From contig NZ_JAGKSR010000001.1 in the NCBI RefSeq assembly GCF_017939615.1, positions 2,666,001 through 2,730,000 on the forward strand: a DNA stretch of 64,000 nt. The letters are read 5' to 3'. The stretch comes from Microbacterium sp. BLY. GTDB taxonomy: Bacteria > Actinomycetota > Actinomycetes > Actinomycetales > Microbacteriaceae. Below, piece after piece: positions 59,757 through 59,947 of this stretch. Position 1 is the first letter of the stretch; the number at the start of each line of letters is the position of its first letter. Both the position numbers and the translations under genes were made by a program. Below the pieces are notes generated by a model that made no database searches, had not been told where the DNA came from, and was given only the letters and a program-made list of their open reading frames with translations.

Positions 59757-59872
59757 GATGGGCTACTTCTCTTCGTCGATAGGGACGGGCCAACACAAGC
59801 GCCGCGACGAGGAAGGCCCTAGTGTCAGGACTCGTCGCGGCAGCTAAGAAGAAGCAGACCGCCGAAAGGCAT
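59757..59872 (-). promoter_or_regulatory. leuA leader RNA with competing hairpins (candidate leucine switch)
   Basis: GCCGCGACGAG (59841-59831, inside the leader-peptide codons) pairs perfectly over 11 bp with CTCGTCGCGGC (59811-59801). The same right arm can instead pair TCGTCG (59810-59805) with CGACGA (59778-59773), and adjacent CCTT with the AAGAGAAG ribosome site of leuA. A ribosome finishing the leader would cover the left arm and let the second structure hide the leuA start. A ribosome stalled on Leu codons would leave the left arm free. Confidence 0.65.
59825..59872 (-). CDS. leuA leader peptide with four consecutive Leu codons
   Basis: A 15-codon ORF on the minus strand, from ATG 59872 to TGA 59825, encodes MPFGGLLLLSCRDES. 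Its four consecutive Leu codons (CTG CTT CTT CTT) lie just before the left hairpin arm. TAGCAT (59884-59879) ends exactly 6 nt before the ATG, so the leader is itself predicted to be leaderless. Leucine-rich leaders ahead of leuA are an established theme in Actinobacteria; this one is assigned from sequence alone. Confidence 0.7.
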   Translation of the reverse strand: MPFGGLLLLSCRDES

Positions 59873-59947
59873 GTGGTCATGCTAGCAGGCTCGCCGCGGG
59901 CGTTGCGACGTGGCGAGACGATGCGCGCTCCGACGACACTGGTGGAT

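Follow-up and report, generated by a model that had tools for sequence, protein, structure and literature searches.

The region upstream of leuA in Microbacterium sp. BLY is a LEU element, a kind of leader that is already described and not new, since the LEU element, its S. lividans and corynebacterial versions and leaderless polycysteine leaders of mycobacteria have all been published. Such elements were predicted 20 years ago, and this locus is an ordinary example. The comparison of relatives reported here favors one pairing scheme, in which the run of leucine codons in the leader pairs with the leuA Shine-Dalgarno (SD) sequence, over another, in which the right arm of a central hairpin does so. 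The leader, its spacing from the promoter, the hairpin, a pseudoknot and the Leu-run/SD pairing are conserved and covarying; what is added here to the LEU element is the promoter spacing, a class-wide count, covariation statistics and copies upstream of leuC and leuB. The element probably controls leuA translation through the position of the ribosome on the leader, and the Leu codons most likely mimic an anti-SD sequence and mask the leuA site. If this is true, a single Leu-codon sequence both senses leucine and masks a ribosome site.

The leuA leader and its predicted fold

Coordinates refer to the window, the whole 64,000-nt stretch of DNA that was analyzed. leuA (58002–59756, minus strand) encodes a 2-isopropylmalate synthase of 584 aa with 98% identity to that of Microbacterium sufflavum, and its ATG at 59756 is preceded by CGACGAAGAGAAG. 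Further upstream on the same strand, a −10 box (TAGCAT, 59884–59879), made an extended −10 by the TGC before it, is separated by 6 nt (GACCAC) from the ATG at 59872 of a 15-codon ORF, MPFGGLLLLSCRDES* (59872–59825). This leader peptide is predicted to be leaderless from the sequence, from its conservation and from S. lividans RNA-seq data. It contains the Leu codons CTG CTT CTT CTT (59857–59846); CTT accounts for three of these four codons and for 1.6% of the Leu codons in 32 ORFs of the window. On the plus strand, a divergent small lipoprotein-like gene (59921–60595; product beginning MRAPTTLVDMSSSRVCRPVALGAVAALLLLTGC) is separated by ~40 bp from the −10 box of leuA.

The 116-nt region between the leader start and leuA (59757–59872) folds at −50.8 kcal/mol, compared with −36.7 ± 3.6 kcal/mol for shuffled sequences (z −4.0; 0/200 as good). 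At its center is a hairpin whose left arm, GCCGCGACGAG (59841–59831), lies within the leader codons and forms 11 bp with the right arm, CTCGTCGCGGC (59811–59801). Direct reading of the sequence agrees with the positions that the original prediction gave for leader, promoter and hairpin. That prediction missed two further pairings. In the minimum-energy fold, the Leu codons are paired with the leuA ribosome-binding region (about 59773–59763), which lies within GAAGAGAAGTAG; just upstream, CGACGA (59778–59773) continues into GAAGAGAAG (59774–59766). In addition, the hairpin loop (GGGCC, 59819–59815) is able to pair with a downstream strand (GGCCC, 59791–59787) as a pseudoknot. Judged by the fold, by covariation with the SD in two sets of species and by the rare CTT codons, the Leu run most likely provides both the sensor codons and the 5′ strand of a stem over the leuA ribosome site; the 3′ strand of this stem is assigned from the same fold and from modeled accessibility.

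We found no intrinsic terminator between leader and leuA in the window, where a classical transcription attenuator would carry one, and none has been reported for leuA leaders elsewhere. This points to translational rather than terminator-based control, as had been proposed at the outset, and we rejected intrinsic termination here. Related actinobacterial ilvB leaders are reported with terminators, but we consider it quite improbable that the position of the leader ribosome acts on transcription by setting Rho-dependent or intrinsic termination ahead of leuA.

Conservation, covariation and modeled ribosome positions

We compared leuA upstream regions from 80 genomes and 31 further loci (111 in total, L001–L111), mostly from Microbacteriaceae. 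The leader was present in 111/111 regions, with ATG or GTG as start codon, and in 108/111 a TAnnnT sequence lay 6–7 nt ahead of the start; TG directly preceded it in 85 of these 108, so that the promoter is mostly an extended −10. These counts bear out the earlier idea of a conserved, putatively leaderless Leu leader peptide. Since the frame of the leader relative to that of leuA is random across relatives, the ORF is not an extension of leuA. The Leu run is conserved at the codon level, and the leader stop lies ~60–80 nt from leuA in most relatives. Both observations argue against a leader that merely raises leuA translation by reinitiation, without leucine sensing. An earlier proposal that actinobacteria reinitiate after short leaders concerns gaps of ~10–11 bp, and we rejected this explanation as highly improbable. 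A covariance model located the element in 276/297 sampled genomes of the class, even though an Rfam 15 search over the element (59757–59872), at the gathering threshold and with E up to 1, matched no family; the published LEU element appears to be absent from Rfam.

RNAalifold recovered the central hairpin alone, with 99% of cells paired, and pair counts gave changes on both sides in 4/10 pairs of this helix, which has 10–11 bp in relatives. The MAFFT alignment was not used for pseudoknot counts: the downstream strand was misaligned by one base in many rows, and for this reason we chose swap tests on individual sequences. For each species, we compared how strongly its two native segments pair, in terms of energy, with the pairing of segments swapped between species, a procedure that retains column composition and removes shared ancestry only partly. 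The tests were run on dereplicated Micrococcales (n = 45) and on independent leuA elements from a wider sample of the class (n = 30). The hairpin covaried in both sets (z −5.8 and −6.3, respectively), as did the Leu run with the SD (z −4.5 and −3.8) and the hairpin loop with the downstream pseudoknot strand (z −4.2 and −4.0), which pair in relatives as, for example, AAGCC/GGCTT or GACCGG/CCGGTC. Unrelated segment pairs, taken as negative controls, stayed within a |z| of about 1 (−0.5 to +0.6 in Micrococcales, −0.4 in the independent set). Codon choice alone made the Leu-run/SD stem stronger than the synonymous mean in 61/88 species, not in all of them, which counts against this stem.

The original prediction assigned the OFF state to a different helix. 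A ribosome that reached the leader stop would cover the left arm, leaving the right arm to pair with CGACGA and hide the leuA site; upon starvation, the hairpin would form and leuA would be free. The right-arm pairing is possible in the window, and it covaried weakly in the full Micrococcales set before strict dereplication (z −3.2). Strict dereplication left little of this signal (z −1.7, p 0.05, n = 45), and little was seen among the independent leuA elements (z −0.9, p 0.20, n = 30). The comparison across relatives that had been suggested upheld the hairpin and the Leu codons and gave weak support for the right-arm/SD helix. Because of its covariation in the swap tests, the Leu-run/SD stem is the better supported OFF structure.

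We modeled occlusion by the ribosome in 88 species with ViennaRNA, treating the ribosome as an unpaired footprint and folding without the pseudoknot. Free RNA had a mean modeled SD accessibility of 0.35; a ribosome stalled on the first Leu codon brought this mean to 0.54, and ribosomes on the last Leu codon and on the stop codon gave means of 0.44 and 0.39, respectively. Stalling on the first Leu codon raised accessibility by >0.1 in 60/88 species and lowered it by that much in one. For the window, the corresponding modeled values were 0.09, 0.69, 0.30 and 0.71. Free RNA favored the hairpin together with the Leu-run/SD stem (6.1 bp, against 0.4 bp of right-arm/SD pairing, means over 88 species), and right-arm/SD pairing appeared mainly with the ribosome on the last Leu codon (5.6 bp) or on the stop codon (4.4 bp). 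The last of these values is in favor of the switch originally proposed. A terminating ribosome is transient, however, whereas the free RNA would adopt the Leu-run/SD stem, and in the window the modeled SD is not hidden when the ribosome is on the stop codon. We regard a switch through the right arm as unlikely.

For the Leu-run/SD stem, we infer the following course of events. Transcription would start at the leader ATG. Once the ribosome has passed the Leu codons or left the leader, the pyrimidine-rich, anti-SD-like Leu run would pair with the ribosome-binding site of leuA. With the two strands kept together by the central hairpin and the pseudoknot, leuA would be repressed in vivo. When charged leucine tRNA is scarce, the ribosome would stall on the first Leu codons and cover the Leu strand, and the leuA site would be freed. 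The direction of this response, in which leucine starvation would turn leuA on, is that of the original prediction, and our modeling is consistent with it.

Copies upstream of leuC and leuB

The covariance model identified three copies in the same genome, located before leuA, before a second leuA and before leuC. The second leuA is 51% identical to the leuA of the window, and its element (L114:1489-1612; G000:C1:1625402-1625483, plus strand) has the leader MHSSRFLLLRRHGGA. This gene was rejected as an element-free control because the LEU element is present there too. The leuC element lies directly upstream of its gene (L113:1494-1600; G000:C1:2326343-2326425, plus strand) and has the predicted leaderless leader MRTVLLLSGRGETSI, with TAACCT six nt before the leader ATG. 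Among leuC loci of Microbacteriaceae, 25/30 gave a strong match to the element and 1/30 a weak match.

Weaker matches in other families led to a leuB variant, often upstream of leuB-ilvE, that has Val/Leu/Ile sensor codons and the same hairpin core (L224, L228-L231, L234, L240, L241, L243, L244, L247, L248, L250, L252-L277, L280); examples of its leaders are MRSVFVLIDCRGEA and MRQVLVLITCRGGA. Four weak matches without a recognizable leader and leu-gene context were set aside (L245, L246, L249 and L251). A model built from leuB variants only, for which 27 of the best 30 loci were upstream of leuB, also matched leuA elements, which supports common descent of the two. These copies extend the range of the element to leuC and, in a form with other sensor codons, to leuB; in a literature search that was not exhaustive, we found no published description of either copy. 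Many leuB loci also have a conserved small ORF (..DRRDNGG..) of about 31–43 codons between leader and leuB, with an ALDRRDNGG- or ALDLRDNGG-like end in L224, L228, L229, L230, L231, L234, L244, L247 and L250.

A switch of the sensor codons to Val/Leu/Ile before leuB, with the core unchanged, is expected of a codon sensor. It argues against a leucine response that acts through a candidate protein rather than through the leader codons, as does the retention of leader frame, start codon and 6–7-nt promoter spacing in 108/111 relatives. The case for a protein was made from the conserved pseudoknot and from phylogenetic co-occurrence by Seliverstov et al (2005; PMC1262725), who argued against attenuation by a leader peptide. 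Mutations of the S. coelicolor leuA leader, discussed in the same work, gave effects inconsistent with classical attenuation, which likewise favors a protein. The codon/SD stem may explain these effects as well, because mutations of the Leu codons would break the stem in addition to the sensor; the comparative data thus offer a reason why the Streptomyces results seemed inconsistent with classical attenuation. We consider a protein-mediated response improbable and sensing by the leader codons the preferred reading. On a wider scale, LEU-type elements might constitute an RNA-encoded branched-chain regulon in actinobacteria, with Leu copies at leuA, the second leuA and leuC, Val/Leu/Ile copies at leuB-ilvE, one hairpin core throughout and Leu sensor codons that would themselves be the anti-SD strand; on this broader proposal we are evenly divided.

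Comparison with known systems

Seliverstov et al (2005; PMC1262725) placed the LEU element ahead of leuA in most Actinobacteria and described it as a leader ORF with a Leu run, a pseudoknot and a base stem between the Leu codons and the leuA SD, with no terminator. A Leu-run ORF precedes leuA in the window and in all 111 upstream regions, the base stem is present in the minimum-energy fold and covaries in both swap sets, and the pseudoknot, which also covaries in both, lies inside this base stem. We see no structural difference between the published element and the Microbacterium leader, and Leifsonia xyli, which belongs to the same family as Microbacterium, was among the genomes analyzed in PMC1262725.

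In a different genus, the counterpart of the Microbacterium leader is leuL1 (MRFGLLLLSCRGEGL) upstream of leuA in S. lividans, which is leaderless according to RNA-seq and without a Rho-independent terminator (PMC8079986). There the transcript start was mapped, whereas the Microbacterium start is predicted from the promoter spacing. Leaderless polycysteine short ORFs of mycobacteria are reported to be cysteine-responsive attenuators (Canestrari et al, 2020, as cited in PMC13236596 and PMC9031893); going by these descriptions, they resemble the Microbacterium leader, itself predicted to be leaderless, in combining a short ORF and a codon run with, in their case, amino-acid-responsive attenuation of the downstream gene, and they differ in having cysteine in place of leucine codons. 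The initial supposition that such a leaderless leader is unusual is therefore not supported, given that the LEU element is known and that leaderless cases are reported in S. lividans and mycobacteria. The leuA leaders of C. glutamicum and C. diphtheriae, discussed as leader-peptide attenuation with no test of structure (PMC4046766, PMC5784534), share with the Microbacterium leader four consecutive Leu codons ahead of leuA. With the E. coli-type leucine attenuator, the Microbacterium leader has in common a Leu-rich leader peptide and competing RNA structures; unlike that system, it would act without a U-run terminator hairpin and would instead hide the initiation site.
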